DNA of 64,000 nucleotides from Polyangium mundeleinium (GTDB lineage Bacteria; Myxococcota_A; Polyangia; Polyangiales; Polyangiaceae): contig NZ_JAQNDO010000001.1 in NCBI RefSeq assembly GCF_028369105.1, forward strand, positions 7,844,501 to 7,908,500, read 5' to 3'. The notes under the pieces were generated by a model. That model saw only the letters and a program-made list of their open reading frames with translations. It did not search any database and was not told where the DNA came from. Positions 18,252-31,579 of the stretch are shown here, in pieces (position 1 is the stretch's first letter; the number at the start of each line of letters is the position of its first letter). Position numbers and translations under genes: made by a program.

Positions 18252-19611
18252 TCGATCCCACGCCCCGCACGTCGTCATCGTGGACGACAAGCTCGAAATG
18301 GCCGAGATGCTCGCCGACGGCCTCGCCGAGCACGGTGTTTCGGCATTCGCCGTGGCCACGGGCAAGCAAGCCCTCGCGCGCATCGAGGCAGAGCCGGTCG
18401 ACGCGCTCGTGACGGACCTGCGCATGCCCGGAATGGACGGCATCGAGCTCTTGACCGCCGCGCGCCGCGCCGTGCCGGATCTGCCGGTGCTCGTGATGAC
18501 CGCCTATGGCGCCCTGGAGACCGCCATCGAATCGATCCGGCGCGGCGCCTACCATTACCTGACGAAACCCTTCAAGCTCGACGAGCTCGTCGTGTATCTG
18601 AACCGCGCCCTCGACGAGTCGCGCATCCGGCGCGAGGCCCGCACGCTCCGAAAGTCGCTGCGCGACGAGGCGACGAAGGCAGGCATCATCGCGCGGAGCC
18701 CCGCAATGCGCGCCGCGCTCGACGTGCTCGCCCGGGTGGCGCCGAGCGACGCGCCCGTGCTGCTCATGGGCCCCACGGGCGCGGGGAAAGGTCTGCTCGC
18801 CCGATATCTGCACGCCGAGAGCGGCCGCGCGCGGGGCCCCTTCATCACGGTCAATTGCGCCGCCCTGCCCGAGCCGCTGCTCGAAAGCGAGCTATTCGGC
18901 CACGCCAAGGGCGCATTCACCGGTGCAACCACGCGCCGCCTCGGTCTTTTCGCCGAAGCCGAAGGCGGCACCATGTTCCTCGACGAGATCGGCGAAATGG
19001 CGCCCTCCCTGCAAGCAAAGCTGCTCGACGTGCTCGAACGGCGCGTCGTCCGCCCCGTCGGCGCAACCAAGGAGGCGCCCATCGACGTGCGAATCGTCAC
19101 GGCCACACACCGCGACCTGCGCCGCCGCGTCGCCGAGGGGCTCTTTCGAGAGGATCTGCTCTACCGGCTCGACGTCGTCCCCGTCAACGTGCCCCCCCTG
19201 CGCGAGCGTCGCGAAGATCTCCCCGAGCTCGCCGCCGAGCTGCTCGCCAAAGCACGCGCACGCCACCCCACCTCCCACGTCGAGCGTCTCTCACGCGAGT
19301 GCATGCTCGCCATGCTCGCGTATCCCTGGCCCGGCAACGTACGCGAGCTCGCGCACGCCATGGAGCGTCTCGTATTGCTCGGCCACGGGCCCGAGGCGCA
19401 ATTCGCCGACGCAGCGTTGCCGCAAGCAGCCCCAGGAGAAGCACAAGGCCCCCATTTCGTCGGCCCCGTGCTGCCCCTGCGCGAAGTGCAGCAACGTTAC
19501 GCCCGCTGGGCCCTCGCCGAGCTCGGCAGCAACAAATCACGCACAGCCGATCGTCTGGGCATCGACGTCAAAACGCTCGCCAAATACCTCGCCGACGACG
19601 CGTCGGATTGA
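18244..19611 (+). CDS. NtrC-family sigma-54-dependent response regulator
   Basis: 455 residues with the full NtrC layout: receiver domain (VDDKLEMAEMLADGL; phospho-acceptor Asp58 in VTDLRMPGMDG; lysine in YHYLTKPF), AAA+ ATPase with Walker A GPTGAGKG, the sigma-54 contact loop GAFTGA, Walker B GGTMFLDEIGEM and the arginine-finger region LRERREDLPELA, and a C-terminal Fis-type helix-turn-helix (ELGSNKSRTADRLGIDVKTL). It must act on RpoN promoters. The four -24/-12 boxes with GGGAA-N3-TTCCC palindromes in this window are the natural candidates for its targets, including its own operon. Confidence 0.94.
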   Translation: MPDRSHAPHVVIVDDKLEMAEMLADGLAEHGVSAFAVATGKQALARIEAEPVDALVTDLRMPGMDGIELLTAARRAVPDLPVLVMTAYGALETAIESIRRGAYHYLTKPFKLDELVVYLNRALDESRIRREARTLRKSLRDEATKAGIIARSPAMRAALDVLARVAPSDAPVLLMGPTGAGKGLLARYLHAESGRARGPFITVNCAALPEPLLESELFGHAKGAFTGATTRRLGLFAEAEGGTMFLDEIGEMAPSLQAKLLDVLERRVVRPVGATKEAPIDVRIVTATHRDLRRRVAEGLFREDLLYRLDVVPVNVPPLRERREDLPELAAELLAKARARHPTSHVERLSRECMLAMLAYPWPGNVRELAHAMERLVLLGHGPEAQFADAALPQAAPGEAQGPHFVGPVLPLREVQQRYARWALAELGSNKSRTADRLGIDVKTLAKYLADDASD

Positions 19612-19624
19612 GCCGCATGCTGAA

Positions 19625-19971
19625 GGCGCGGAGCTGGGGCTTTGCCCCAGGCCCCACCGGGGCTGTCCGCCCCTGGACCCGGACCAGCGCAAGCGCTGGA
19701 CTCGGGGTCGATGAACTGCGCGGTGCGCAGTTCATCGAACAGCCGCTGGCAAGACCGCGAACGATCCTGCCAATCAAGGCCGCAGCGCTGCCGGTTCAAC
19801 TGGCAACGTTGGCGTCGCCAGGTTGAGACCCACCTCCAGGGTCTTGCCACCGGCCCATGGGAAGAACTGCGCACCGCGCAGTTCTTCCCCCTTCGGTCCA
19901 GGCCGTGCCTGGTCCGGGTCGAGGGGCGGACAGCCCCCGCGGGGTCCGGGGCAGAGCCCCGGCGCGACGCC
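19625..19971 (+). repeat. Dispersed nested-palindrome element, copy 1 (two inverted arms)
   Basis: Non-coding element of 347 bp directly after the NtrC-type gene. Two arms face each other, and each carries three hairpins in the same order from the outside in. H1: CTGGGGC/GCCCCAG left and CCGGGGC/GCCCCGG right. H2: CCAGCGC/GCGCTGG left and CCAGGC/GCCTGG right. H3 is a 31-bp palindrome, 19708-19738 with arm TCGATGAACTGCGC and 19859-19889 with arm GGGAAGAACTGCGC, each with a 3-nt loop. Stems differ between arms by paired changes. A spacer of about 90 bp separates the arms. No open frame with gene-like features was found. The remaining bases up to 20264 hold no recognised feature apart from the ribosome binding site of the next gene. 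Confidence 0.85.
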
Positions 19972-20264
19972 TGGACGAGCAGCCGCTTTCTCCGCTTCTT
20001 CCCTCTTGTCGCGGAAGCCATCGAGCGCGAGCGCTCGCGGACGGGAGGGGCTCGCCAAGGATTCGGCGAATGTCCCGCTTGTGCCGCAAACACGTGAAAC
20101 CGAAGGCTCGGATGCGGGCATCGGAGTCGGCGAAGCATAGGCGCGCGGTACCTCGAACAGCCGCCCAGCCGCACCGCTTGCCCCGGTCGATTCGCGGTTG
20201 TTCGCCCGTGCCGGCGCGTCGTAGAGCCCATCCCTATTTTGGCATATGCATTGAAAGGACCATC

Positions 20265-21740
20265 ATGTCGATTGTTCGAGCCATCCCGCGTTGGGTCGTG
20301 ACGGCCGGCGCCGCCGTGGCGGTCGTCCCCGCCTCGGCCGTCCCCGCACGGGCCGCGGACGGCGTGACGCCGTCCACGTTCTCCGCGTCGCTCGAGCCTG
20401 GGGAGCACGTCACCATTACGAAGACCGTCACCACGCCGGAGATCCTTCCCAAGCCGGACATCTACTTCCTGGCCGACACCACCGGGAGCATGACCCCGGT
20501 GCTCGAAAACGTCATCGCCAATGCCGAGACCATCCTGGCCGCGGTCGATGCCACCGCCAATGACCCGCGCTACGGCGCCGGCCAGTACCGGGACTTCCCG
20601 ACCGGCGGCGGCTTCGCCTATCGCAATGACGCCGCCATCCCGTCGACGGACGACAATGGCGCCGCCGCGCTGGCGGCCATCGGGGCGTGGACCGCGTCTG
20701 GCGGCGGCGACTTCCCGGAGGCGAACCTGTTCGCCCTGCACAAGCTGGTGACCGAGGCCGGCTTCCGGCCCGATTCGAGCGGGATCGTCGTCTGGTTTGG
20801 CGACGCTCCCGGACACGACCCCGTGTGCTCGGCGATCTCCGGCGAGGCGACCGTCACCGAGGCCTCCGTGATTGCGGAGCTGCAGGCCGCCAACATCCAG
20901 GTCATTGCCGTGTCCAGCACGACCGGTGTCCCCGACGGCCTTGATGGCGACCCCGTCGCCAGCTCGTCCGACTACGAAGTCTGCGGCAGCCCCGGCGGCA
21001 GCCCGGGACAGGCCACCCGCATCGCGAATGCCACCGGCGGGCTCGTGTTCAAGGACGTCGCGCCGGAAGATGTGGCGGACGCCATCCTGGCCGGTCTGGC
21101 CAGCCTGCCGGTGACCGTGACACCCACGGCGACCTGTGACAGTGGCTTGACCGCGACGTTCGACCCCGCGGAGGAGACGGTGCTCAGCGGCACCACCGTC
21201 ACGTTTGCCGAGACGCTGACGCTCGACGCGGGCGTGACCCACCCCGCCGCCCTGACGTGCACCGTGGACTTCCTCCTCAATGGCCTGTCGGCCGGCGCGG
21301 CGTTCGTCGAGACGAATACGATCCAGCCGATCCTCAACCAGCCACCGGTGTGCACGGGCGTCAGGGCCGGCCCGAGTGAGCTGTGGTCGCCGAACCACAA
21401 GTTCGTCACCGTCGTGCTGAGCGGCGCCACCGACCCCGACGGGGACGCGACCACCCTGACGATCACCGGGGTGACGCAGGACGAGGCGCTCAACGGCACC
21501 GGGGACGGCGACACCACGCCCGATGCCGCCTGGGTGAGCAACGCCGTCCGGGACCGGGTGAAGGTGCGGGCCGAGCGCAGCGGGGGCGGTGACGGCCGCG
21601 TCTATCGGATCTCGTTCACCGTCCGCGACGAGAACGGCGACACGTGCACCGGCACCACGAACGTCGGGGTCCCGCACGACCAGGGCCACGGCCCGGCCGT
21701 GGACACGACGTCGGTCGTCGTGAACTCGTTCGGGAGCTGA
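20265..21740 (+). CDS. Secreted protein with von Willebrand factor A domain
   Basis: 491 residues. The signal peptide (RAIPRWVVTAGAAVAVVPAS, cleavage near ARA-AD) shows export. A VWA domain spans about residues 65-285 with a MIDAS-type motif DTTGSM, followed by a Gly-rich region and an ATGGLVFKDV segment as in integrin-beta-like VWA proteins. After it come a short Cys-containing beta domain (TVTPTATCDSGLTATFDP) and a C-terminal region with PPVCTGVRAGPSELWSPNHK and DPDGDATTLTITGV, resembling extracellular beta-sandwich repeats. The ATG has an AAAGGA site 5 nt upstream (20254-20259). It stands alone between a repeat element and an opposing gene. Probably binds a ligand through a metal ion at the cell surface; the partner is unknown. 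Confidence 0.82.
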   Translation: MSIVRAIPRWVVTAGAAVAVVPASAVPARAADGVTPSTFSASLEPGEHVTITKTVTTPEILPKPDIYFLADTTGSMTPVLENVIANAETILAAVDATANDPRYGAGQYRDFPTGGGFAYRNDAAIPSTDDNGAAALAAIGAWTASGGGDFPEANLFALHKLVTEAGFRPDSSGIVVWFGDAPGHDPVCSAISGEATVTEASVIAELQAANIQVIAVSSTTGVPDGLDGDPVASSSDYEVCGSPGGSPGQATRIANATGGLVFKDVAPEDVADAILAGLASLPVTVTPTATCDSGLTATFDPAEETVLSGTTVTFAETLTLDAGVTHPAALTCTVDFLLNGLSAGAAFVETNTIQPILNQPPVCTGVRAGPSELWSPNHKFVTVVLSGATDPDGDATTLTITGVTQDEALNGTGDGDTTPDAAWVSNAVRDRVKVRAERSGGGDGRVYRISFTVRDENGDTCTGTTNVGVPHDQGHGPAVDTTSVVVNSFGS

Positions 21741-21786
21741 TGGATCCTGCGTGCCGGTGGCGTCCCGCGTGACGGCGCTCGAGGGT

Positions 21787-23133
21787 CTACGACGGAGACC
21801 TCGCCCCTTTCGACCCGAGCTGCCGGATCGCAAAGCCGAGGCCATCGCGCAACGTCGCCAGCGTGCGCACGCGCGACAAATCGAGGCCGAGGGAAATCAT
21901 CGTTTGCGCCACGGTCGGCCGGATTCCGGTGATGATTCCTTCTGCGCCGAGGAGCCGCACGGCGCTGAGGATGTTCAGCATGTGCGCGGCGGTCGCCGTG
22001 TCGACGACTTCGACGCCTGTCAGGTCGAGGATCGCGAAGCGCGATTGTGTGCGGGCGACGGCGGCGAGCAGGTCGTCCGTCACCCGCGCGGCGCGGCGGC
22101 TATCGACGACGCCCACCATGGGCAGCGTGAGCACGTGATCCCATACCTGGATGATCGGCGTCTCCAGATTGAGGATCACCTCCTGCTGCCGCTGGATCAG
22201 GGCGAGCTTCCCCTCCAGCTCCAGCTTGGCCTTGTGGGGCTCGGTCACGTTCACGCTCATGCCGATCACGCCCGAGATGCGCTTGTCTTCCTCGGCGACG
22301 GGGACCATCCAGTGCTCCCAGATGACCCCTTCCCCATCGTCGATGACATGAACGTGGTTGCCTGCGAGCGCGCGTTGCAGGTGGTCACCGGAATAGATCT
22401 CGAAGAAATTCTGCCCGACGAGTTGTCCCCGCGTGAGGCCCGCCGATTCCACGCCGCGGCCGTCGTGGAAGGTGCAGATTCCTTTGTCGTCGATGGCCCA
22501 GACGACCACGTCCAGGTTGTCGAGGAACCCCTGGAGGATCCGCGCGAGCCGGAGCCTGTCCTTTTCCGCGGCGATGCGTTGTGCGTCGGCATTTCGCCGA
22601 CGCTCCCGCTCGGCCTCGTATCGTTTCCGCACGCCGACGTCGCCGAACACGACCACGGCGCCCAGGAGCTCGCCGTCCTTGTCACGAATGGGCCGGCCGG
22701 ACACCGACAGGGATACGCCCTCCGGCAGCGCCTCGCTCCGCGCGAGCATCCCCACGCCTTCCGTGATCTCGCCTCGGAGGGCTCGTTGCAGGGGAAACTC
22801 GCTCGACGGGAACGGGGTCACGCCGTCCGGGAGAAAGACGTGATAGGTGTCCGCCCAATCCGCGGGCTGGAGGTGGGCCAAGCCTGCCCCGAGCATCTTC
22901 GTCGCCGCGTCATTGCAGTGGACGAGCCTGCCCTCGTGGTCGGAGATGATGACGGCGTCGGCGAGATCTCGAAACGCCGCCCGGAGGACCGCGAGCTCGC
23001 CCTCCGGGTCGGGCGCGCGCTCCTCACGCGGCGGGCCGTCCCCGGCCGGTGCTGTCGCGGCGAGGCGCGCCGAAAGCTCGGCGACCTGCGCGCGGAGCGC
23101 CGCGCATTCCTCTTCCAACCCAGGGTGCGACAT
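21787..23133 (-). CDS. PAS-PAS-STAS signalling protein (RsbR-like)
   Basis: 448 residues, no membrane segment. A short coiled coil at the N-terminus (ALRAQVAELSARLAA) leads to PAS 1 (about 45-155, with ISDHEGRLVHCNDAA and GRPIRDKDGELLGAVVVFGD), a linker helix, PAS 2 (about 185-295, with WAIDDKGICTFHDGRG), and a C-terminal STAS domain (about 325-440) containing DLTGVEVVDTATAAHMLNI, close to the RsbR/stressosome consensus around the phosphorylated Thr/Ser. Such proteins relay a sensed signal by partner switching. No kinase or anti-sigma partner is encoded next to it here. It is convergent with the VWA gene. Confidence 0.88.
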   Translation of the reverse strand: MSHPGLEEECAALRAQVAELSARLAATAPAGDGPPREERAPDPEGELAVLRAAFRDLADAVIISDHEGRLVHCNDAATKMLGAGLAHLQPADWADTYHVFLPDGVTPFPSSEFPLQRALRGEITEGVGMLARSEALPEGVSLSVSGRPIRDKDGELLGAVVVFGDVGVRKRYEAERERRRNADAQRIAAEKDRLRLARILQGFLDNLDVVVWAIDDKGICTFHDGRGVESAGLTRGQLVGQNFFEIYSGDHLQRALAGNHVHVIDDGEGVIWEHWMVPVAEEDKRISGVIGMSVNVTEPHKAKLELEGKLALIQRQQEVILNLETPIIQVWDHVLTLPMVGVVDSRRAARVTDDLLAAVARTQSRFAILDLTGVEVVDTATAAHMLNILSAVRLLGAEGIITGIRPTVAQTMISLGLDLSRVRTLATLRDGLGFAIRQLGSKGARSPS

Positions 23134-23273
23134 GACATCTTTCCTCGTGCCCCGGGATGGATCGTCGTGGGCACATAAGCCTTTGACGATAGCAGCCGAT
23201 TTCCTGGATCGTCAACGTGACGGGGGTGCCAGAAGCGTGCCTGCGCCGCGGTTTTCCGCCTTCGGAGCGCGGG

Positions 23274-23867
23274 TCACTTCGGCGCGGCGGCGTTCACGGT
23301 TCCGGCCTCGGCGGGCTTCTGCGCCTTGGCGGCCTCTTCGGCGACCTTTTTGAGGTTGCCGAGGCCATTCTCGAAGTCCTTCCCGATCATCGCGTCCATG
23401 TCCATGAACAGGCAAAACATCTTCCCGATGAAGTCGTTCTCGCCGCTCATGAACCAGGTGATCTTCGTGTCGTTCCCTGCCGCCTCGACCTTGAATCCAT
23501 TGTCGGTCTTGGACGCGAACGGCTTCAGGAATTCGAGCTTGATGTCCAGGCGCTCGTTCGGCTTGATGGCGGCGATCGTCATCCGGCCCGCGCCGACGTC
23601 GTCGTTTCCTTCCCATTCGTAGACGGCGCCGACCTCGCCTTGCGTGCCGCCGAACGTCGTCTTCATGTTGGGATCGAGCTTCGCCCAGGGCGACCAGGCC
23701 TCCCACGTCCGAAAGTCCTTGACCCGGTTGAACACGAGGTCCACCGGCGCCGCGATGGTGGCGTGGCGCTCGACCTGATACGCGGACGGGCGCGTCGCGA
23801 CCACGATCAAGAACACGACGATCACGGCCGCGAGACCGAGCCCCACGCGAATGGCGACCTTTTTCAA
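23274..23867 (-). CDS. SRPBCC-family protein with N-terminal membrane anchor
   Basis: 197 residues. The start is TTG at 23867, set by a GGGAGG ribosome binding site 5 nt upstream. An N-terminal helix (VGLGLAAVIVVFLIVVA) is followed by a START/polyketide-cyclase-like domain (YQVERHATIAAPVDLVFNRV, DFRTWEAWSPWAKLDPNMK, GAVYEWEGNDDVGAGRMTI). Such domains bind hydrophobic ligands; the ligand cannot be told. The C-terminus is Ala/Lys/Glu rich. The ribosome binding site lies in one arm of a long palindrome that also covers the predicted -10, so expression is probably controlled by a repressor. Confidence 0.85.
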   Translation of the reverse strand: MKKVAIRVGLGLAAVIVVFLIVVATRPSAYQVERHATIAAPVDLVFNRVKDFRTWEAWSPWAKLDPNMKTTFGGTQGEVGAVYEWEGNDDVGAGRMTIAAIKPNERLDIKLEFLKPFASKTDNGFKVEAAGNDTKITWFMSGENDFIGKMFCLFMDMDAMIGKDFENGLGNLKKVAEEAAKAQKPAEAGTVNAAAPK

Positions 23868-23872
23868 TGAAA

Positions 23873-23909
23873 CCTCCCTCTGTCGGACAAACCGTCCTAC
23901 AGAGGGAGG
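23873..23909. promoter_or_regulatory. Long palindrome, candidate repressor operator over promoter and ribosome binding site
   Basis: Arms of 16 bp (CCTCCCTCTGTCGGAC at 23873-23888 and the complement of CCTCCCTCTGTAGGAC at 23894-23909) with one mismatch and a 5-bp centre. The inner core has the look of a TetR-type operator. The proximal arm contains the GGGAGG ribosome binding site of the SRPBCC gene, the distal arm the predicted -10. Confidence 0.6.
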
Positions 23910-23922
23910 GTAGACGCGTCAA
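23894..23922 (-). promoter_or_regulatory. Predicted sigma-70-type promoter of the SRPBCC gene
   Basis: Minus strand: -35 TTGACG (23922-23917), 17-nt spacer, -10 TAGGAC (23899-23894). The -10 is a weak match. The box lies inside and beside the palindrome at 23873-23909, with transcription predicted to begin within it. Confidence 0.4.
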
Positions 23923-23976
23923 GAATGGAAACGCCCACGCCGATGCCGCGCAGGTTCGTCCCGGTAAAACGACGCG

Positions 23977-25038
23977 TCAGCCGACCGACGCTCCGCTCCC
24001 CCCGCGGCGAAGCCGGCGTCGCCTCCCCTCGGCCCACGCCCGCAGCGCGAAACGAAGGGGATGGCCGCCGGTGAGCGCCGACGCCACGTCCCACAACGCA
24101 ACGATTTCACTCGTGCCACGCGGACGGACGAACCAGACCGGCTCCCATGCGTCCGGCGCGAAGCGGGCGCGGAATGCGCGCAGGCCCTCGAAATCGTAGA
24201 TGTCGTGCCCGAGGCGCCGCAGGATCTGCAATCCCTGCGGCAAGGGCCCCGCGAGCGGGACGAGGCCCATCGTGACCCGCCTGCACGAAGCGCCCGCGAG
24301 CCCCCGCATCGCCGCGTCCACGAGGAGCTCGACCGTCCCGTTCGGCGCGTCGTCCGCGCGGAGAATGTCCTCGAAAAACCAGCCGCCCCGGCCGGGCACC
24401 GGCACCGCCACGAGCACGGCGACCAGACGCTCGCCCCGCTCGGCGACGACGTAAAGCCGCTCGGAGGGCCTGAAAAAGAGGTCCACCGAGAGCAAAAACC
24501 CCAAGGGGCCGCCCCTCCTCCCCGCGAGCCAGCGCGCCGAGAGCGCCTCGATGGCCGCGCCGAGCGCGCCCCCGAGCTCCTCCACCCGGGCGACACGCGC
24601 CCGCACGCCCTTGGCGCGCGCGCGGCGGATCTGCTCGCGCAAACTCCTGCGCCCGGCGAGCACCCGATCCCATTGCAGCGGATCCCAAACCGGCTGCCGG
24701 CCGAGGGGCAATCGCTCGAAGAAGCCGTCACGCGGAAACTCCTCGACCGCGCAGAACCCGGCGCGTCGCCCCGCCCTGCGCGCCGCCTGCACGAATGCGC
24801 GCGCGACGCGCCCCGTCTGCTCGGGCACGCAAAGCGGCGAGCCGACCGCGAGCCACGCCTGGCCCGTGTCCGCGAAGGCGACCCAGGCCCCCGCGCCGTC
24901 GCTCCATGCGCGCATCCCGGGCGCGAGGGACTGGAACGCCACCGTCTCGCGGCCGAAGCAAAACACGGCCTCGGCGAGCGTGGACGGCGTGGGGGCGCGC
25001 GGGAGGGGCGGCGCCGGGGGATCGACGCCGGGGATCAT
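23977..25038 (-). CDS. DUF2156 protein, phosphatidylglycerol lysyltransferase C-terminal domain family
   Basis: 353 residues, no membrane helices. It resembles the soluble GNAT-like domain of MprF-type aminoacyl-lipid transferases: AVFCFGRETVAFQSLAPGM, WVAFADTGQAWLAVGSPLC, LREQIRRARAKGVRARV, FFRPSERLYVVAERGERLV and the C-terminal VTMGLVPLAGPLPQGLQILR with LGHDIYDFEGLRAFRARFAP. The membrane flippase part is absent, so whether it modifies lipids or another substrate is open. The ATG overlaps the stop of the MarR gene as ATGA, making this a two-gene coupled operon. Confidence 0.82.
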   Translation of the reverse strand: MIPGVDPPAPPLPRAPTPSTLAEAVFCFGRETVAFQSLAPGMRAWSDGAGAWVAFADTGQAWLAVGSPLCVPEQTGRVARAFVQAARRAGRRAGFCAVEEFPRDGFFERLPLGRQPVWDPLQWDRVLAGRRSLREQIRRARAKGVRARVARVEELGGALGAAIEALSARWLAGRRGGPLGFLLSVDLFFRPSERLYVVAERGERLVAVLVAVPVPGRGGWFFEDILRADDAPNGTVELLVDAAMRGLAGASCRRVTMGLVPLAGPLPQGLQILRRLGHDIYDFEGLRAFRARFAPDAWEPVWFVRPRGTSEIVALWDVASALTGGHPLRFALRAWAEGRRRRLRRGGSGASVG

Positions 25039-25556
25039 GCCTTCCGCCGGCGCGGGCGGGCTGGCTCCGGTTCGAAGAACATGGGCGCGGGCTCCTCGGG
25101 CGCGCCCATGGCGGTGGCCATGTGCGCGAGGCCCCGCGTGAGCGCCGCGAGCTCGTCCGCGGGCAGGGCGGTGAGCGCGGCGATGAGCTTGAGCTGGACA
25201 GGCGGTGGGGTCTCGCGGAGCAGGGTGCTGCCGGCGGGGGTGATGACGACCTCGGCGCGGCGCGCGTCGTCCGGCGAGACGTGGCGCGCGGCGAGGCCAC
25301 GCTGGACGAGGCGCGCGACCACGACGGAGACGGAGCTCGGGTCGGTGGAGGTGCGGGCCGCGAGCTCGGCGATGGAGAAACGCTTGCCGCTCGCGAGCTC
25401 GCCGAGGACGAAGAGCTGCGCCCCGCTCACGCCGTGCGCCTTTTCCACGGCCGTCGACGAGAGCCGAAGCGCCCGCACAACGTGGCGGAGGGCGTCGAGC
25501 GCCGCAGTCACCTCGGGGTTCCCGGCGGAGGCCGGATCCGATCCATGGGAGCCCAT
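25035..25556 (-). CDS. MarR-family transcriptional regulator
   Basis: 173 residues. A winged-helix core (about 45-115) reads VSGAQLFVLGELASGKRFSI, then ELAARTSTDPSSVSVVVARL as the recognition helix, and VSPDDARRAEVVITPAGSTLL as the wing, followed by a helical dimerisation region. The C-terminus is Pro/Arg rich. The ATG at 25556 is the only one giving a normal MarR length; the open frame upstream runs into repeat sequence. It is first in a coupled pair with the DUF2156 gene and may control that operon. Confidence 0.88.
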   Translation of the reverse strand: MGSHGSDPASAGNPEVTAALDALRHVVRALRLSSTAVEKAHGVSGAQLFVLGELASGKRFSIAELAARTSTDPSSVSVVVARLVQRGLAARHVSPDDARRAEVVITPAGSTLLRETPPPVQLKLIAALTALPADELAALTRGLAHMATAMGAPEEPAPMFFEPEPARPRRRKA

Positions 25557-25614
25557 GCTTTTGCTGAACAGCGTAGAGCCGGACGGACCCTCCCGCAACG
25601 GTGTCTGTCCCGAA

Positions 25615-25770
25615 GGCGCCGCGCCGGGGCGCTGCCCCGGTCCCCGCGGGGGCTGTCCGCCCCTCGACCCGGACCAGGCACGGCCTGGACCGAGGGGGAA
25701 GAACTGCGCGATGCGCAGTTCTTCCAACGGGCCGGTGGCAAGACCAGGGACCAGGTTGCCAGTTGAAAAG
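25615..25770 (+). repeat. Dispersed nested-palindrome element, copy 3, left arm
   Basis: One arm of the repeat family, pointing right. H1 CCGGGGC/GCCCCGG (loop GCT), the CCGCGGGGGCTGTCCGCCCC segment, H2 (arms CCAGGC and GCCTGG), then H3 at 25697-25725 (arm GGAAGAACTGCGC with loop GAT). It continues into spacer sequence containing GGTTGCCAGTTGAA, also present in copy 1. Its partner arm lies 1.05 kb away at 26825-27004 in opposite orientation. The stretch 25557-25614 before it holds nothing recognised apart from the MarR gene's upstream region. Confidence 0.83.
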
Positions 25771-25825
25771 GCAGCAGGAAGGTCGCGAGGCGCTCCAAAG
25801 GCCGTTCCGATCACCCGGCATTGCG

Positions 25826-26170
25826 ATCGCTCCCCCTCCAAGCACGCCTCCAGACGCCGGGACCTCGCTTCGCTCCCCCTCCAACCGCTCCTCCAGACGC
25901 CGGGACCTCGCTTCGCTCCCGCTCCAAGCCTTTCTCCAGACGCCGGGACCTCGCTTCGCTCCCCCTCCAACCGCTCCTCCGGACGCTCGGACCTGTTGTT
26001 GCTCCCGCTCCAACCGCTCCTCCAGACGCCGGGACCCCGCTTCGCTCCCGCTCCAAGCCTTTCTCCAGACGCTCGGACCTGTCGTTGCTCCCACGCCAAG
26101 CGTTCCTCCAGACGCCGGGACCCCGCTTCGCTCCCGCTCCAAGCCTTTCTCCAGACGCCCGGACCCCTCT
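25826..26170. repeat. 43-bp minisatellite, eight tandem copies
   Basis: The motif CAGACG (CGGACG once) recurs at 25851, 25894, 25937, 25980, 26023, 26066, 26109 and 26152, exactly 43 bp each time. Each unit has the form CTCCAGACGCCGGGACC, then CGCTTCGCTCCC, then a CTCCAAGCC or CTCCAACCG variant block. Units alternate between variants, and two carry a TGTTGTT/TGTCGTT version of the middle. 43 is not a multiple of 3, so open frames through the array cycle through all frames; it is treated as non-coding. It ends about 50 bp before the HAD gene. Confidence 0.9.
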
Positions 26171-26218
26171 TCGGCGCCTCCCCTTCCCCGCCCCGCCCCC
26201 CGCTGCCATCCTCCCGCC

Positions 26219-26821
26219 GTGTCCCCAAGGCCGCAGCTCATCTTCTTCGACGTCATGGACACCCTCGTCCGCGACCCCTTCCACGACGTCATGCCTTCGT
26301 TCCTCGGGATGAGCCTGCCCGAGCTGCTCCAGCGCAAGCACCCCACAGCCTGGGTCGACTTCGAACTCGGGCGTATCGACGAGCCCACCTTCCTCGCCCG
26401 CTTCCTGCCCGGCCGCTCCTTCGACGCCGAAGGCTTCTGCAAAGTCGTACGCGAGAGCTACCACCTCCTGCCCGGCATCCGCGACCTGCTCCAAGACCTG
26501 CGCCAAACCGCGCCCGGCGTGCGTCTCTACGCCCTCTCGAACTACCCGCCCTGGTACCGCTGGATCGCCGAGCGCTGCGACCTCGACGAGCTGCTCGACG
26601 GCGCCTTCCTCTCCTACGAAACCGGCGCGCGCAAACCCGACCCCGCGGCCTACCTCGTCCCCTGCAAGCGCCTCGGCGAAGAGCCCGCACAAGCCCTCTT
26701 CATCGACGACCGCGCCAAAAACTGCGAAGGCGCCCGCGCCATCGGCATGCAGGCGATCGTGTTCAACAGCGCCAACCAGCTCCGCGAAGAACTCGCGCAG
26801 CGAGGGCTTGTCGCAGGCTAG
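26219..26821 (+). CDS. HAD-superfamily hydrolase, subfamily IA
   Basis: 200 residues from a GTG start. All four HAD motifs are present: motif I FFDVMDTLV (nucleophile Asp11, acid/base Asp14), motif II ALSNYP, motif III lysine in TGARKPDPAAYL, motif IV FIDDRAKN. The cap is the short alpha-helical type (FLGMSLPELLQRKHPTAWVD). Substrate is likely a small phosphorylated metabolite but cannot be named. There is no clear ribosome binding site, and the minisatellite lies just upstream; GTG was chosen because it gives a standard N-terminus just before motif I. Confidence 0.88.
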   Translation: MSPRPQLIFFDVMDTLVRDPFHDVMPSFLGMSLPELLQRKHPTAWVDFELGRIDEPTFLARFLPGRSFDAEGFCKVVRESYHLLPGIRDLLQDLRQTAPGVRLYALSNYPPWYRWIAERCDLDELLDGAFLSYETGARKPDPAAYLVPCKRLGEEPAQALFIDDRAKNCEGARAIGMQAIVFNSANQLREELAQRGLVAG

Positions 26822-26824
26822 CCG

Positions 26825-27004
26825 GGGTTTCACCGGCAGCGCGCACGTCGCCCGCTTGAACCCCACCTCCCTGGTCTTGCCACCGGCCCGTTGGAAGAAC
26901 TGCGCATCGCGCAGTTCTTCCACCCTCGGTCCAGGCCGTGCCTGGTTCGGGTCGAGGGGCGAACAGCCCCCGCGGGGACCGGGGCAGAGCCCCGGCGCGA
27001 CGCC
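26825..27004 (-). repeat. Dispersed nested-palindrome element, copy 3, right arm
   Basis: Arm of the repeat family pointing left, starting 3 bp after the HAD stop codon. From the inside out: spacer similar to copy 2 (CACCGGCAGCG, CCCACCTCC), H3 at 26892-26922 (arm TGGAAGAACTGCGC with loop ATC), H2 CCAGGC/GCCTGG, then H1 of the CCGGGGC/GCCCCGG type. Together with 25615-25770 it brackets the minisatellite and the HAD gene. The position suggests a terminator-like role for the HAD transcript. The bases 27005-27088 hold only the next gene's leader. Confidence 0.83.
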
Positions 27005-27088
27005 CCCGATGAAACCGTGGAAGCTTGCCGGCCTTCTGCCCCTGCTTCTATGCTGGCGGCGTTCTGCTGGTTTTTTGTGCGGAGAGCC

Positions 27089-27640
27089 ATGTACGCGTCG
27101 CTGGTCGAGCATGTTGGGACGGGGAAGATGATTCGGCTCGAGCGCCGTTTGTCGGGCGAGCCGTCGCTGCATGGGTACCTCCTCGGGCTTGGGCCGGAGC
27201 TTGGGCTCATCCACTGCTTTGATGACTTCGAGCCGGATGGGTACACGCTCTTCCGCTTGGAGGACGTGCTTGCGCATGAGCGTGGTGCTCATGAGGAGCA
27301 CTGGGATCGCATGCTTGCGAGCGAGGGACTGCTCGGGGGGCTGCGTCTTCCGTTCGAGGTCGACTTGCGCGGTTTTTCTTCGGCGCTTCGATCGGTCCAG
27401 GGGCACCACGCGGACGTCATCATCGAGTGCGAGGATGAGGGCGACGAGGACGGGGACTTCTACCTGGGCCGGCTGCTCGAGGTCGGCGAGGAGAACATCC
27501 TCTTGCATTACGTCGATGCGCTTGGACGCTGGGATGAGTCGCCGACGATGATCCCTGCCGAGCGGATCACGAAGGTCCAGTTCGACACGCCTTACTTGCG
27601 ACGCTTCATGCGGTACACGGCGCCGTTCCCGACGCATTGA
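27089..27640 (+). CDS. Hypothetical acidic protein
   Basis: 183 residues; no family recognised. The start ATG at 27089 has GGAG 4 nt upstream. No signal peptide or membrane helix. It is acidic (IIECEDEGDEDGDFYLGRLL) with alternating beta-like segments (LGPELGLIHCFDDFEPDGYT, NILLHYVDALGRW) and a C-terminal ITKVQFDTPYLRRFMRY, which resembles the small beta-barrel tails seen in WYL-like or Sm-like regulatory domains; that likeness is only suggestive. Its 3' end overlaps the convergent glycosyltransferase gene by 35 bp. Confidence 0.75.
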   Translation: MYASLVEHVGTGKMIRLERRLSGEPSLHGYLLGLGPELGLIHCFDDFEPDGYTLFRLEDVLAHERGAHEEHWDRMLASEGLLGGLRLPFEVDLRGFSSALRSVQGHHADVIIECEDEGDEDGDFYLGRLLEVGEENILLHYVDALGRWDESPTMIPAERITKVQFDTPYLRRFMRYTAPFPTH

Positions 27641-28985
27641 GACGACCGTAGAGGTGCGCGTAGAGGCTCGCCGGGCGAGCCCAGCCCGGCGCGGCGTGTA
27701 GGACGCGACGACGGAGCGACGTGGCCTCGGGGCCGCTGAGGTGCGCGAGGGCGCGGCGGACCGCGAGGACGAGGGCGTCGGCGCTTGGTGTGTCGAAGAG
27801 GACGCCTGTGCCGCGGCCTGGGTGCATGGCTTCGTCGAGGATCGTGTCTGCGAGACCGCCTGTGCGACGTGCGACGGGCAGCACGCCGTAGCGCTGGGCC
27901 TCGAACTGCACGACGCCGCAGGGCTCGAAGCGGGAGGGCATGATCAAGACGTCGGCGGCTGCGAGCAGGCGGCGCGCGATCGGGTCCGGGATGGCGCCGA
28001 GGAAACGCGCGTGGGCGGGGTGCGCGGCGGCTGCGACGGCGAGGGCTCGTTCGAGGGGGGCGTCGCCGGCGCCGGCCATGACGATGGTCGCGCCGGCGCG
28101 GCAGAGGTCGGGGATCGCTGCGGCCACGAGGTCTGCGCCTTTTTGCGGCACGACGCGGCCGAGCGAGGCCACGAGCGGGCGCGCCGTGTCCATGTCGAGC
28201 CCGGTCTCTGCGAGGAAGGCGCGCTTGCAGAGTGCCTTGCCTGCGAGGTCGTCGGGGCCGAAGGGCGCGGCGAGGGCCGGGTCGCGCGCGGGATCCCAGG
28301 CGTCGAGGTCGATGCCGTTCGTGATGCCGAGGATGCCGCGGCCGTCGCGTTGGGCGCGCGCGCGGAGGACGCCGTCGAGCAGCTCGCCGTGTGCAGGATC
28401 GAGGATCTCGCGCGCGTACGTGGGGGAGACCGTGGTGATGGCGTCGGCGGCGAGGAGGCCGGCCTTGAGCAGGTTCACGCGGCCGTGGAACTCGAGCGCG
28501 TCCGGGTGGAAGTGCGAGGGGCCGAGGCCGAGGGACACAAGCGTCTCCTTCGGGAAGACGCCCTGGAAGGCGAGGTTGTGGATCGTGAGCACGGTGCGCG
28601 GGCGCGGACCTCGGGCCTCGCGGAGCAGGTACGGGACGGCTGCGCCGGGCCAGTCGTGCACGTGGACGACGTCGAAGCCCTCGGCCATCGCGGCGGCCGC
28701 GCGCGCGAAGAGGGCGAAGCGGCGCGCGGTCTCGTGCTCGCCGTCGCCCTCGCGGCCGTAGGGGCCGAGGTGCGCGGGGAGGTCGGGGAGCACGACGACA
28801 CGGGCGCGGACGCCGGGCGCGATCGGGATCTCCGGTTCGAGGGGCCTGCCTGGGGGCGCGGGGATCACGACGGTGACGTCGTGCCCGAGGCGCGCGAGGG
28901 CGCGGGCGAGCCCGGCGACGCCGTCCGCGATGCCGCCGAAGCGGACGAGGGGCGCGAGCTCGGCCGCGACGTGGAGGAGCTTCAA
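27606..28985 (-). CDS. glgA: GlgA-like glycogen/starch synthase (GT5 family)
   Basis: 459 residues of a GT-B glycosyltransferase that would add glucose from (A/U)DP-glucose to alpha-1,4-glucan. The N-terminus KLLHVAAELAPLVRFGGIAD aligns with the MKxLxVxxExxPxxKxGGLxD start of GlgA, but the usual Lys of KxGG is Arg. Other family motifs: DVVHVHDWPG, TIHNLAFQGVFP, ITTVSPTYAREI, ILGITNGIDLDAWDP, SLGRVVPQKG and the C-terminal MPSRFEPCGVVQFEAQRYG. The TTG at 28985 was chosen because it starts exactly at the family N-terminus and lies 7 nt after the preceding stop; no strong ribosome binding site is seen. Likely co-transcribed with the Cys-rich lipoprotein gene upstream, which may be chance. Confidence 0.85.
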   Translation of the reverse strand: MKLLHVAAELAPLVRFGGIADGVAGLARALARLGHDVTVVIPAPPGRPLEPEIPIAPGVRARVVVLPDLPAHLGPYGREGDGEHETARRFALFARAAAAMAEGFDVVHVHDWPGAAVPYLLREARGPRPRTVLTIHNLAFQGVFPKETLVSLGLGPSHFHPDALEFHGRVNLLKAGLLAADAITTVSPTYAREILDPAHGELLDGVLRARAQRDGRGILGITNGIDLDAWDPARDPALAAPFGPDDLAGKALCKRAFLAETGLDMDTARPLVASLGRVVPQKGADLVAAAIPDLCRAGATIVMAGAGDAPLERALAVAAAAHPAHARFLGAIPDPIARRLLAAADVLIMPSRFEPCGVVQFEAQRYGVLPVARRTGGLADTILDEAMHPGRGTGVLFDTPSADALVLAVRRALAHLSGPEATSLRRRVLHAAPGWARPASLYAHLYGRLNASGTAPCTA

Positions 28986-28992
28986 GGGCAGC

Positions 28993-30456
28993 TCAGGGCG
29001 GGCACTTGCCGCCGCAGTCCGCGGGGCAGGTGCACTGGTTCTCGCTCTTCGCGGTGCAGGTGCCGTCGCCGCACGTGCCGGTGCAGGCGCCACAATCCTG
29101 GAGGCAGTCCAGGCAGGTCTCGAAGGGCTGGCAGACGCCGTCGCCGCAGAAGCCGACGCAGTCCGCCCCGCAGGTGACGGTCTCGCTGCAGTGGCAGATG
29201 CCGTCGCCGCACTTGGGCCCGCAGTCCGCGACGCAGCCCATGCACGTCTCGCCGGTCTCGCAGGAGCCGTTGCCGCAGCACGCGCCGGTGCAGTCCTGCG
29301 CGCAGGTCAGGCAGGTCTCGCCGAAGTTGCAGACGCCGTCGCCGCAGCAAGCGCCGCAGTCCGCCGCGCAGCTCTGGCAGGTCTCGCCGGTGCCGCAGGA
29401 CTTGTTGCCGCAGAGCTCGCCGCAGTCCTTGGGGCAGTTCGACTTCGTCTCGCCCGCCGAGCAGGTGCCGTTGCCACAGGCGACGGGGCAATCGGTCGGG
29501 CACTTGGCGTGGTTCTCGAAGTTCTGGCAGACGCCGTCCCCGCAAGCCGGGCACGCGCCGCAGTCCTCGACGCACGCGCCGCAGAGGATCTCGGCGGCCT
29601 CGCAGACGTCGTTGCCACAGCAATCGCAGTCGTCGTAGCAGGTGGAGCACTTCTCGCCGAAGTTGCAGGCGCCGTCGCCGCAGCAGGCGCCGCAGTCCGC
29701 GGAGCAGTTCGAGCAGTTCTCGCCGAAGTTCGTGTCGCACTTGCCGTTCGAGCAACACGCGCCGCAGTCGTCGTCGCAGTTCGCGCAGTTCTCGCCGAAG
29801 CCCGTGTCACACGTGCCATTGCCGCAGCAGACGCCGCAGTCGCCGGGGCAGTTCGCGCACGTCTCGGTGCCTTCGCAGACGTCGTCGCCGCAGTTGCACG
29901 GGCAATCCACGAGGCAGGAGCCACACGACTCGCCAGGCACACACGCGCCGTCGCCGCAGTTGATCTGCGGGATGCACGCAGGCGTGCCGCTGCCCGGAGG
30001 CTTCTCCTCGCAGGCGTACCCCGTCGGGCAAGGGTGTTCGATGCAAACACACGGCAAGCTGAGCGGGACGACGCCCATCGTGCCCGCAGGGAACTCGGTG
30101 AACATCGTCTCGGAGGAAACAGTGTCGTCATCCCGCGCAAGGTCGAACGTGGCCGACGCGCGGTGCTTCGTGCCCTCGGGATCCGAGAGCGAGATGCGGC
30201 GCGCAATCGGGAGCTCAGCAGCACTCGCGACAGGGATGGTCTCCGTGAGGTCGATGCGATCCCCCGTCTCCACCTGCACCGTGACGGAGCGAAGGCGCGC
30301 CGCACATTCGGTGCCGACGCCCATCACAAGCGTGACGTCGGTGGTCGCCGAAGGCGCGACGTCGCTGCCGCACTGCAAGCCGAACACGGCAAGGAAAAGG
30401 GCGAGCGCAGCGACGACAACGCCACGAAGCGCAAGAGGAGCAGTCGGCCGGGACAT
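28993..30456 (-). CDS. Cys-rich modular lipoprotein with 14 CGDG-type repeats
   Basis: 487 residues. An export signal (MSRPTAPLALRGVVVAALAL) ends in FGLQCGS, a lipobox-like site with an unusual Gln before the Cys. A beta-rich domain (about 35-150, TDVTLVMGVGTECAARLRSV) is followed by about 14 tandem modules of 20-25 residues of the form CG(D/N)GxC-xxGExCxxCxxDCG. The dense paired cysteines predict a rigid, disulfide-stitched extracellular rod. Such modules are common in myxobacterial surface proteins; function unknown. Start ATG 30456 chosen over an in-frame TTG 18 nt upstream. Confidence 0.82.
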   Translation of the reverse strand: MSRPTAPLALRGVVVAALALFLAVFGLQCGSDVAPSATTDVTLVMGVGTECAARLRSVTVQVETGDRIDLTETIPVASAAELPIARRISLSDPEGTKHRASATFDLARDDDTVSSETMFTEFPAGTMGVVPLSLPCVCIEHPCPTGYACEEKPPGSGTPACIPQINCGDGACVPGESCGSCLVDCPCNCGDDVCEGTETCANCPGDCGVCCGNGTCDTGFGENCANCDDDCGACCSNGKCDTNFGENCSNCSADCGACCGDGACNFGEKCSTCYDDCDCCGNDVCEAAEILCGACVEDCGACPACGDGVCQNFENHAKCPTDCPVACGNGTCSAGETKSNCPKDCGELCGNKSCGTGETCQSCAADCGACCGDGVCNFGETCLTCAQDCTGACCGNGSCETGETCMGCVADCGPKCGDGICHCSETVTCGADCVGFCGDGVCQPFETCLDCLQDCGACTGTCGDGTCTAKSENQCTCPADCGGKCPP

Positions 30457-30511
30457 GTCCCATCGTCGCGCCAATCGCAGGGCTTTCGCAATCCGAACGG
30501 GCTCGTCATAG

Positions 30512-30857
30512 GGCGCGGAGCTGGGGCTTTGCCCCAGGCCCCAGCAGGGGCTATCCGCCCCTGCACCCGGACCAGCCAGGGGCTGGACCCGGGGTCGATG
30601 AACTGCGCGATGCGCAGTTCATCGAACAGCCGGTGGCAAGACCGCAAACGACCCTGCCAACAGCAACCGCAGCGCCGCAGGTTCACCCGGCAGCGTGCGC
30701 GTCGCCGGCTTGGAACCCACCTCCATGGTCTTGCCACCGGCCCGTTGGAAGAACTGCGCGGAGCGCAGTTCTTCCACCCTCGGTCCAGGCCGTGCCTGGT
30801 CCGGGTCGAGGGGCGGACAGCCCCCGCGGGGTCCGGGGCAGCGCCCCGGCGCGACGG
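30512..30857 (+). repeat. Dispersed nested-palindrome element, copy 2 (two inverted arms)
   Basis: 346 bp, same layout and orientation as copy 1. Left arm: H1 CTGGGGC/GCCCCAG, H2 CCAGCC/GGCTGG, H3 at 30595-30625 (arm TCGATGAACTGCGC, loop GAT). Right arm: H3 at 30746-30776 (arm TGGAAGAACTGCGC, loop GGA), H2 CCAGGC/GCCTGG, H1 CCGGGGC/GCCCCGG. It lies in the 412-bp gap between two leftward lipoprotein genes. Apart from a short AGCTC repeat at 30859-30875 nothing else is seen in that gap. Confidence 0.86.
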
Positions 30858-30868
30858 CTCAGCTCAGC

Positions 30869-31579
30869 TCAGCTCCCGAGCGCGCAGGCTGAGGACAGCC
30901 TCGTGCCGCAGCACGTCGAAGCGCCGCACACCTGGCCTGTGGTGGAGAGGCCCGCGCCACAGGAGAAGCCGGCGCCGCATCCGCACGAGGACGGGCCCGC
31001 GTCGACGTCCCCACCGTCGCCAGCGTCATCGCCTGCGTCATCGCCTGCGTCGTCGCCTGCGTCGTCGCTGGGGCCTGCGTCTGCGTCGTCGCATCCGCAT
31101 ACGGAGCCGACGTGGAAGACGAGCTTGCGCGTCGCGGCTTCGCAGAAGTCCGTGTCGATGGTTTGGATGTCGCCGAGGATGGGCGGCAGGGGCGAGGGGC
31201 AAGCGAACTCCTTGCCCGGCCCCGCGTTCTCCTGGCCCTTCAGGGTTGCGAAGGAGAGGACCTCGATGTTGATGCGCTCGGAGGCTGGGTTTTCCGCGTC
31301 GCGCTTGAGGACGAAGCTCGCCGGGGTGTCGCCCGTGAGGTTCACGCAGAGCGCGGCGACCTCGGTGCTGCCCTTCGTGACGACGATGCGCGCGGCGCCG
31401 GGCTTCGCGGGGGTCTCCACGGGGACGAGCTCGACGAGCAGGTAACTCGGGTTCCCGGCGTCGTCCGATCCACACGCCGAGACGAGGATGCCGGTCGTCG
31501 CCAGGAGGGATGCGCCCACGGCGAGGGCGAGGGCCGCGCGCCGGCGAGAACGGGGCATGTCGCGAGCGGCGTCGGGCAT
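30869..31579 (-). CDS. Lipoprotein with Asp-Ala-Gly repeat and Cys-rich tail
   Basis: 236 residues. Signal peptide with lipobox VSACG (after RRAALALAVGASLLATTGIL). A compact beta domain follows (YLLVELVPVETPAKPGAARI and INIEVLSFATLKGQENAGP), then a low-complexity run of DDAG units (about residues 170-195) and a Cys-rich tail (CGCGAGFSCGAG, STCCGTRL). The ATG at 31579 overlaps the stop of the upstream gene (TGATG), so it is the third member of a coupled operon with the kinase and PEGA protein. A second ATG at 31558 is possible. Function unknown. Confidence 0.8.
   Translation of the reverse strand: MPDAARDMPRSRRRAALALAVGASLLATTGILVSACGSDDAGNPSYLLVELVPVETPAKPGAARIVVTKGSTEVAALCVNLTGDTPASFVLKRDAENPASERINIEVLSFATLKGQENAGPGKEFACPSPLPPILGDIQTIDTDFCEAATRKLVFHVGSVCGCDDADAGPSDDAGDDAGDDAGDDAGDGGDVDAGPSSCGCGAGFSCGAGLSTTGQVCGASTCCGTRLSSACALGS

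Follow-up and report, generated by a model that had tools for sequence, protein, structure and literature searches.

Hairpin-armed intergenic elements in Polyangium as a probable genus-wide MITE family with a Tn5-like insertion sequence partner

The hairpin arms described here probably belong to a genus-wide family of small mobile DNA elements (MITEs) in Polyangium. The explanation that best fits the data as a whole, and that we hold with the same good confidence, joins these MITEs to a Tn5-like insertion sequence (IS) as their partner, to targeting of hairpin tips, and to ends that have since decayed. Under this proposal, a Tn5-like transposase would recognise the same short ends on the IS and on the MITEs and would move the latter in trans by cut-and-paste. 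A preference for the tips of DNA hairpins would bring the MITEs into terminator-like palindromes beside stop codons and would bring the IS into the hairpins of the MITEs themselves, which would thereby serve as landing pads. The ends would decay afterwards, and what preserves the arms would be either conversion among copies or selection acting on the palindromes. If this is correct, one traceable system links the way in which bacterial MITEs stay in safe places to the reason why IS elements seek palindromes, and the same system bears on how structured repeats keep their pairing while the sequence changes.

Hairpin arms in the window and their spread

The window, the whole 64,000-nucleotide stretch of the Polyangium mundeleinium genome that was analysed, contains six arms, each formed by four hairpins termed H1, H1b, H2, and H3. 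An initial annotation had placed six arms at the same positions, and all are recovered there by a covariance model built from 59 distinct arms, which include these six. It had read three hairpins per arm; H1, H2, and H3 are as it described, down to every stem variant that it quoted, and the one it missed is H1b, located between H1 and H2.

Two elements carry both arms. Element 1 comprises an L-type arm on the forward strand (19622 to 19739), an inner region with no strand assigned (19740 to 19857), and an R-type arm on the reverse strand (19858 to 19974), and a forward-strand ORF ends upstream of it at 19611. Element 4 likewise has an L-type arm on the forward strand (30509 to 30626), an unstranded inner region (30627 to 30744), and an R-type arm on the reverse strand (30745 to 30861). 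The other two elements have a single R-type arm: element 2 on the forward strand (25612 to 25727, with a tail to approximately 25770) and element 3 on the reverse strand (26891 to 27007, with a tail back to approximately 26825). Just before element 3 lies a forward-strand ORF whose stop ends at 26821 and which, on reading its translation, we take to be a putative HAD-like hydrolase. The core palindrome of H3, GAACTGCGCNNNGCGCAGTTC, occurs six times in the window compared to 0.13 times expected from shuffles. Folding of the double-arm elements is 13-14 standard deviations below that of shuffled sequences, and folding of the single-arm elements is about 3 below.

The sites of these elements are occupied differently in sister species, which are represented by five further genomes of the genus (G085 to G089). 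The site of element 2 is filled in G086 and G087 and empty in G088 and G085, and that of element 3 is filled in G088 and G087 and empty in G086 and G085. This independent filling rules out a single composite element at 25612 to 27007 with a gene between its arms. For element 4 (30509 to 30861), the whole element is missing at the site in G086, G087, and G088 and is present in G085.

Two other repeat features were observed in this region. Between the arm of element 2 and the next ORF is a tandem array with a period of 43 nt (25750 to 26222), and a reverse-strand ORF that appears cysteine-rich by eye (28993 to 30474) covers DNA repeats that mostly recur every 63-72 nt.

Further copies, a lack of which the initial annotation had said would count against a family, are numerous. 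There are 177 exact H3 cores in the 13.25-Mb genome from which the window comes (G000), forming part of at least 103 merged elements, and the reversed control gives none. The five other genus genomes hold 248, 183, 431, 480, and 37 cores (183 being the count for G086), and a single core was found in one of 102 other genomes of the taxonomic family. The covariance-model search that had been proposed, in which up to 33 candidates per genome were scored, gave matches in all six genus genomes and weak matches in two of the 102 others. A scan of named genomes returned at least 120 stretches, of which 8 are from unrelated taxa and 112 from Polyangium, the latter being, among the matches listed, Polyangium fumosum DSM 14668 and Polyangium sp. 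15x6, 6x1, and y55x31. The results support a structured, non-coding family that is dispersed in the genome and has inverted arms whose hairpins covary. The available portions of the open-licence literature on MITEs in Polyangium and other myxobacteria yielded no description of this hairpin-arm family.

Base pairing is preserved throughout. In the 59 arms, the 35 base pairs of the structure hold in 96.6% of cells and 14 of the 35 are changed on both sides in some arms, compared to 33-47% of cells paired when the structure is slid by one to three columns. For the best 150 of 193 arm matches, drawn from named loci, 97.6% of cells are paired, double changes occur in 18 of 35 pairs, and sliding leaves 34-46%. 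The weak spot is H1b, whose two outermost pairs are broken in 57 and 43 of the 150 arms. Letters present in no more than two of these arms are equally rare in unpaired columns (14 of 5,237) and in stems (30 of 9,563), and what the covariation therefore demonstrates is pairing in the source hairpins rather than selection at the RNA level on each copy. On the same grounds, covariation was no longer taken to prove that every copy is under selection. The earlier statement that compensating changes maintain pairing holds in this restricted sense, since most of these changes separate whole-hairpin types, of which there is a limited number.

Strong folds and covariation are also what a structured non-coding RNA or a cis-regulatory RNA family would exhibit. 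We regard such an identity as very improbable, given that the rare letters are no rarer in stems than in loops, that outside one column pair only a single cell among the 150 arms holds a wobble pair, and that the best-preserved copies carry transposon ends and target repeats (see below). Moreover, an Rfam search of window positions 19500 to 31000 with E values up to 10 produced four matches, none of which reaches its gathering score; the match overlapping element 4, Gammaretro_CES, scores 21 bits against a gathering score of 93 (E = 9.9). The initial annotation had allowed for pairing either in RNA or as DNA cruciforms. Nothing in these results supports a transcript, and the insertion of IS copies at hairpin tips points to DNA.

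Terminal repeats and the partner insertion sequence

The best-preserved copies are bounded by the terminal inverted repeat CTGAGCATKGGTCTCATC. A full copy of approximately 350 nt consists of this repeat, a four-hairpin arm, an inner stretch, a different arm in inverted orientation, and a second terminal repeat. The repeat corresponds to an end motif that was first seen outside some arms and is present in all six genus genomes. Searches with CTGAGCATGGGTCTCAT at no more than two mismatches gave 37, 70, 18, 36, 44, and 11 matches in G000 and in G085 to G089, respectively, and none with the reversed control. The 37 matches in G000, which include IS ends, compare with at least 103 merged elements, and thus most copies have no recognisable ends. 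No end motif was found in the window, and the copies there are presumably old family members whose ends have decayed. By eye, GGTTTCATC, which adjoins element 3 on its outer side (27008 to 27016, reverse strand), is a possible remnant of the terminal repeat.

Target repeats accompany many of the preserved ends. Among 36 candidate end pairs, 10 have flanks matching at 8 or 9 of 9 letters, compared to 0.4 in shuffled pairings, and at most two match when shifted by one to four letters. Fifteen pairs are MITE-sized, with both ends within three mismatches and with TGA at end letters 2-4 not required. They span 344-396 bp, too short for a 475-aa gene, and are taken as non-coding on this ground. Nine of the 15 have target repeats, seven at 8-9 of 9 letters and two as 10-letter repeats with a shift of one nucleotide; the other six have good ends and no target repeat, and they include the two pairs that lack TGA at end letters 2-4 (in L351 and L353). 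A wider list of 87 end pairs consists mostly of chance pairs with four to six mismatches at one end. In 1.48 Mb taken from five genomes, 66 elements were found, several of them with empty sites in sister species, in a comparison restricted to elements whose two flanks could both be aligned.

Two unusual units were noted among the end pairs. One, of 1,011 bp (L302:930-1940), has both ends and a perfect 9-bp target repeat; an arm starts at either end, and the unit contains a single H3 core. It exceeds the usual length by about 650 bp, and such ends may therefore carry cargo. The other, an end pair lacking a target repeat (L353:595-950), begins right after CGCCGGGGTTT, the start of the H1 hairpin of an arm, and is possibly a MITE inside an arm.

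The ends of the best-preserved MITEs also bound an IS of 1,504 bp whose product is a transposase of 475 aa. This protein contains the Pfam domains Tnp_DNA_bind, DDE_Tnp_1, and Dimer_Tnp_Tn5, matches the NCBIfam IS4 model at 240.6 bits (cut-off 160), and has as its best match among solved structures the Tn5 transposase 1mus (7.7e-31). The YREK motif of DDE transposases is represented by YSQRWRIEDFFRTWK. The reading frame is open in L300 and in L304 to L306. Three copies (L300, L304, and one at 8.04 Mb) measure 1,503-1,504 bp and have target repeats matching at 8 or 9 of 9 letters; L306 has no target repeat. The initial annotation had reported no transposase nearby, which is accurate for the window and fails for the genome, where four full-length IS copies without stops encode proteins of 100% (rounded) identity. 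The nearest of these, at 8.04 Mb, is about 134 kb past the end of the window. One full-length copy is present in G087, 16 partial matches in G085 are located mostly at contig ends, and fragments occur in G088 and G089. A search of G086, which has 183 H3 cores, returned no transposase match. Many contigs of G085 break at the IS, and its copy number in that genome is uncertain for this reason.

On these sequence features, the IS is a member of the IS4 family and of its IS50 (Tn5-like) subgroup, an assignment that the YREK signature, the length, and the repeat size all fit. In the sections of PMC2266710 that were available, this subgroup is given a length of 1,350-1,550 bp, direct repeats of 8-9 bp, and ends of the form CW------Y---CA-A--W-, and by eye the Polyangium ends agree with six of the seven conserved letters. 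The likeness extends to ends beginning with CT, a Y-(2)-R-(3)-E-(6)-K spacing, repeats mostly of 9 bp, and Tn5-type domains. Against what those sections describe, the Polyangium IS differs in that its copies are mostly in hairpin tips and that more than 100 MITE copies accompany it in its own genome. The shared ends and repeat length lead us to infer that the MITEs are mobilised in trans by the 475-aa transposase.

Bacterial MITEs, as portrayed in the accessible part of PMC10969869, are short, non-coding, intergenic, typically AT-rich elements that form stem-loops and have terminal inverted repeats and target repeats that wane with time, and they are kin to resident IS elements thought to act on them in trans. 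The Polyangium elements resemble this description in being short, non-coding, intergenic, IS-related, and able to form stem-loops, and in having terminal inverted repeats and target repeats. They depart from it in being GC-rich, in having two dissimilar multi-hairpin arms, in sharing only about the outer 20 nt with the IS, and in containing hairpins that are insertion sites of their own partner.

Target sites and placement in the genome

Most of the IS copies examined lie in MITE arms. Among 27 distinct IS end flanks from the loci examined, several of which in G085 may be the two ends of one copy, a script identified 22 as arm sequence (18 in H2 and four in H1b), and the right flank of L300, missed by the script, reads as H2 by eye to give 23. 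Most of the insertions in arms are at the tip of H2, and the target repeat GGCACGGCC is the middle of an R-type H2. The four flanks outside arms come from three places.

A similar tendency is seen, less uniformly, at MITE target sites. When the flanks of ten MITE insertions are joined, one of them being the 1,011-bp unit, the stems at the insertion point are 8, 3, 4, 3, 4, 9, 8, 8, 5, and 2 bp. Four of the sites are hairpins of 8-9 bp, and the other six, with stems of 2-5 bp, are not hairpins. For 2,055 intergenic control points the mean stem is 3.04 and 1.7% reach 7 or more, giving p = 0.0006 for stem length and p = 0.07 for folding energy. Tn5 transposase is a standard laboratory enzyme, and a natural relative that prefers hairpin tips, if this is one, would for that reason be directly testable in vitro.

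The closest precedent for hairpin targeting is provided by ISRm22 and other IS elements that target REP sequences. The accessible text of PMC1525189 describes ISRm22 as an IS4-family element of Sinorhizobium meliloti with nine copies in REP palindromes, and ISPsy8 as inserting at a hairpin axis. The Polyangium targets differ in being hairpins inside MITEs that bear the ends of the IS itself, a link for which that text gave no counterpart.

Elements lie close to the 3ˊ ends of genes. According to a home-made, unbenchmarked gene predictor, with gaps of at least 20 bp counted, 24 of the 66 elements are located between convergent genes, 33 between tandem genes, and seven between divergent genes, and two overlap predicted genes. 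Convergent gaps make up 22 of 62 filled gaps compared to 106 of 732 unfilled ones, and an element lies within 27 nt of 48 of 81 neighbouring gene 3ˊ ends and of 9 of 47 gene starts. This enrichment beside stop codons and between convergent genes would also be expected if the elements were retained as transcription terminators or insulators between genes, with mobility accounting only for their origin. The occupation of some sites in four or five species, even though in 8 of 12 comparisons the element varies more than both of its flanks, as if any copy sufficed, also agrees with such a role. We nevertheless think it rather unlikely, since several sites are empty in sister species and no run of T nucleotides was seen by eye after the hairpins in the window. 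Moreover, a preference for hairpin targets may itself account for elements hugging gene 3ˊ ends, giving the same placement without selection.

On the chromosome, element density climbs with distance from dnaA (11.65 Mb). None of the 103 merged elements is within 1.3 Mb of this gene, and the counts per tenth of the distance from dnaA to its antipode are 0, 0, 1, 7, 5, 12, 19, 18, 19, and 22, based on 162 of the 177 palindromes (three of a set of 103 and 12 with other loops were left out). No replication-strand bias of element orientation was apparent by eye in the strand listing. Such a gradient could arise if the palindromes marked the terminus half of the chromosome and were bound by an organising protein. 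This seems a distant prospect to us, given that the gradient comes from one genome, that filled sites vary between species, and that class B arms have another hairpin in place of the H3 core (see below). Moreover, the circular mean of the elements is at 6.4 Mb compared to 5.0 Mb for the dnaA antipode, and the gradient is accounted for just as well by an insertion bias or by selection against copies that land near the origin.

Exchange of hairpins and independence of the arms

In 8 of 12 comparisons at shared sites, four of which concern a single site, the element in its better orientation diverges more than both flanks; for example, at G000:7966521 compared with G085 the element value is 0.86 and the flanks are 0.99 and 0.97. 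In two of the 12, the element aligns better when inverted. Either insertion occurs at these sites more than once or one copy can overwrite another. Given this divergence and the fact that one-sided changes are almost absent, it looks as if whole hairpins are replaced rather than compensated step by step.

The composition of the arms is that of mosaics drawn from a limited set, as judged from 150 aligned rows, in which hairpin types occur in 96 distinct combinations. The covariance model itself gave 151 rows, 100 of which were taken as arms for the locus comparison; the alignment of these rows contained partial and opposite-strand matches and did not enter the pair counts. In full copies an L-type arm faces an R-type arm in inverse orientation, and in the 44 elements with both arms among the 150 rows the two arms differ in H3 and H1b in all 44 cases, in H1 in 41, and in H2 in 37. 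Pairs within an arm are formed in 97% of cells compared to 84% for pairs between the two arms, and where both arms differ the local pairs still hold in 88% of cells. When only distances below 200 are considered, with overlapping loci possibly counted twice, the spacing of H3 cores is 151 nt in 19 of 27 distances in G000 and 117-121 nt in 34 of 64 in the other genomes.

Among 33 pairs from G000, mean identity is 88-89% for the arms, 82% for the inner part, and 27-28%, or near random, for the outer 30 nt, and the stems of the R arm are almost invariant. Private letters amount to 1.8% in the R arm and 0.8% in the L arm compared to 2.2% in the inner part, a difference too small to prove special upkeep of the arms. 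The hairpins may be maintained by conversion, by being selected as landing pads, or by use as terminators. A more specific proposal, which we offer tentatively and with less than even confidence, is that a Tn5-type transposase picks its target by DNA shape, namely an extruded hairpin tip, and that the MITEs build and multiply its landing sites. The two arms would then have to differ because identical arms would create a harmful long palindrome, and short hairpins would be swapped as cassettes.

Class B single-arm elements, exemplified by L182:2334-2448 and found in 15 other cases, have the same H1-H1b-H2 head, with the end hairpin CATCGACCGC/GCGGTCGATG in place of H3. Arms thus occur in single-arm elements that have a different H3, some of them between quite different ends, which indicates that arms are not tied to the Tn5-like transposase. 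It is conceivable, though we would not favour it, that the arm, with its H1-H1b-H2 head and a variable H3, forms an independent palindromic unit of REP-like kind that spreads by a mechanism of its own and that the Tn5-like ends and a second MITE type have merely captured. The same head does recur in class A elements, both paired and single, and in class B singles, the arms are alike next to near-random outer flanks, and the Tn5-like ends are absent from most copies. However, among the junctions listed there is no end-less copy with a repeated junction of its own, and the best-preserved copies end in IS ends, more than half of the MITE-sized ones with target repeats. In addition, a search for the Y1 (RAYT-type) transposase (PF01797) returned no matches in G000, G086, and G087, and one, one, and two in G085, G088, and G089. 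A REP-RAYT system was rejected for the genome of the window on this basis.

Judging from the portions of PMC3116915 and PMC2817692 at hand, the arms share with REP/REPIN-RAYT systems and BIMEs a high copy number, an intergenic location, palindromes in inverted pairs, and a mosaic structure. They differ from these in lacking a Y1 transposase in their own genome, in forming much longer units, and in the DDE-type ends and 9-bp repeats that their best-preserved copies carry.

A second small MITE of about 123 bp, with ends AGAGGGTGTTCCACAG, is present in all six genus genomes (for example, at G000:C1:3380369-3380491). Some class B arms sit between AGAGGGTGTTCCACAG ends with a 3-bp TGA/TCA repeat, which we take to resemble IS5-type TNA targets. 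Duplication of a TGA stop codon upon insertion would account for two class B insertions, and this idea was rejected for class A. At two shared sites, class B elements are inverted between species, and one of these inversions was confirmed by a separate comparison.
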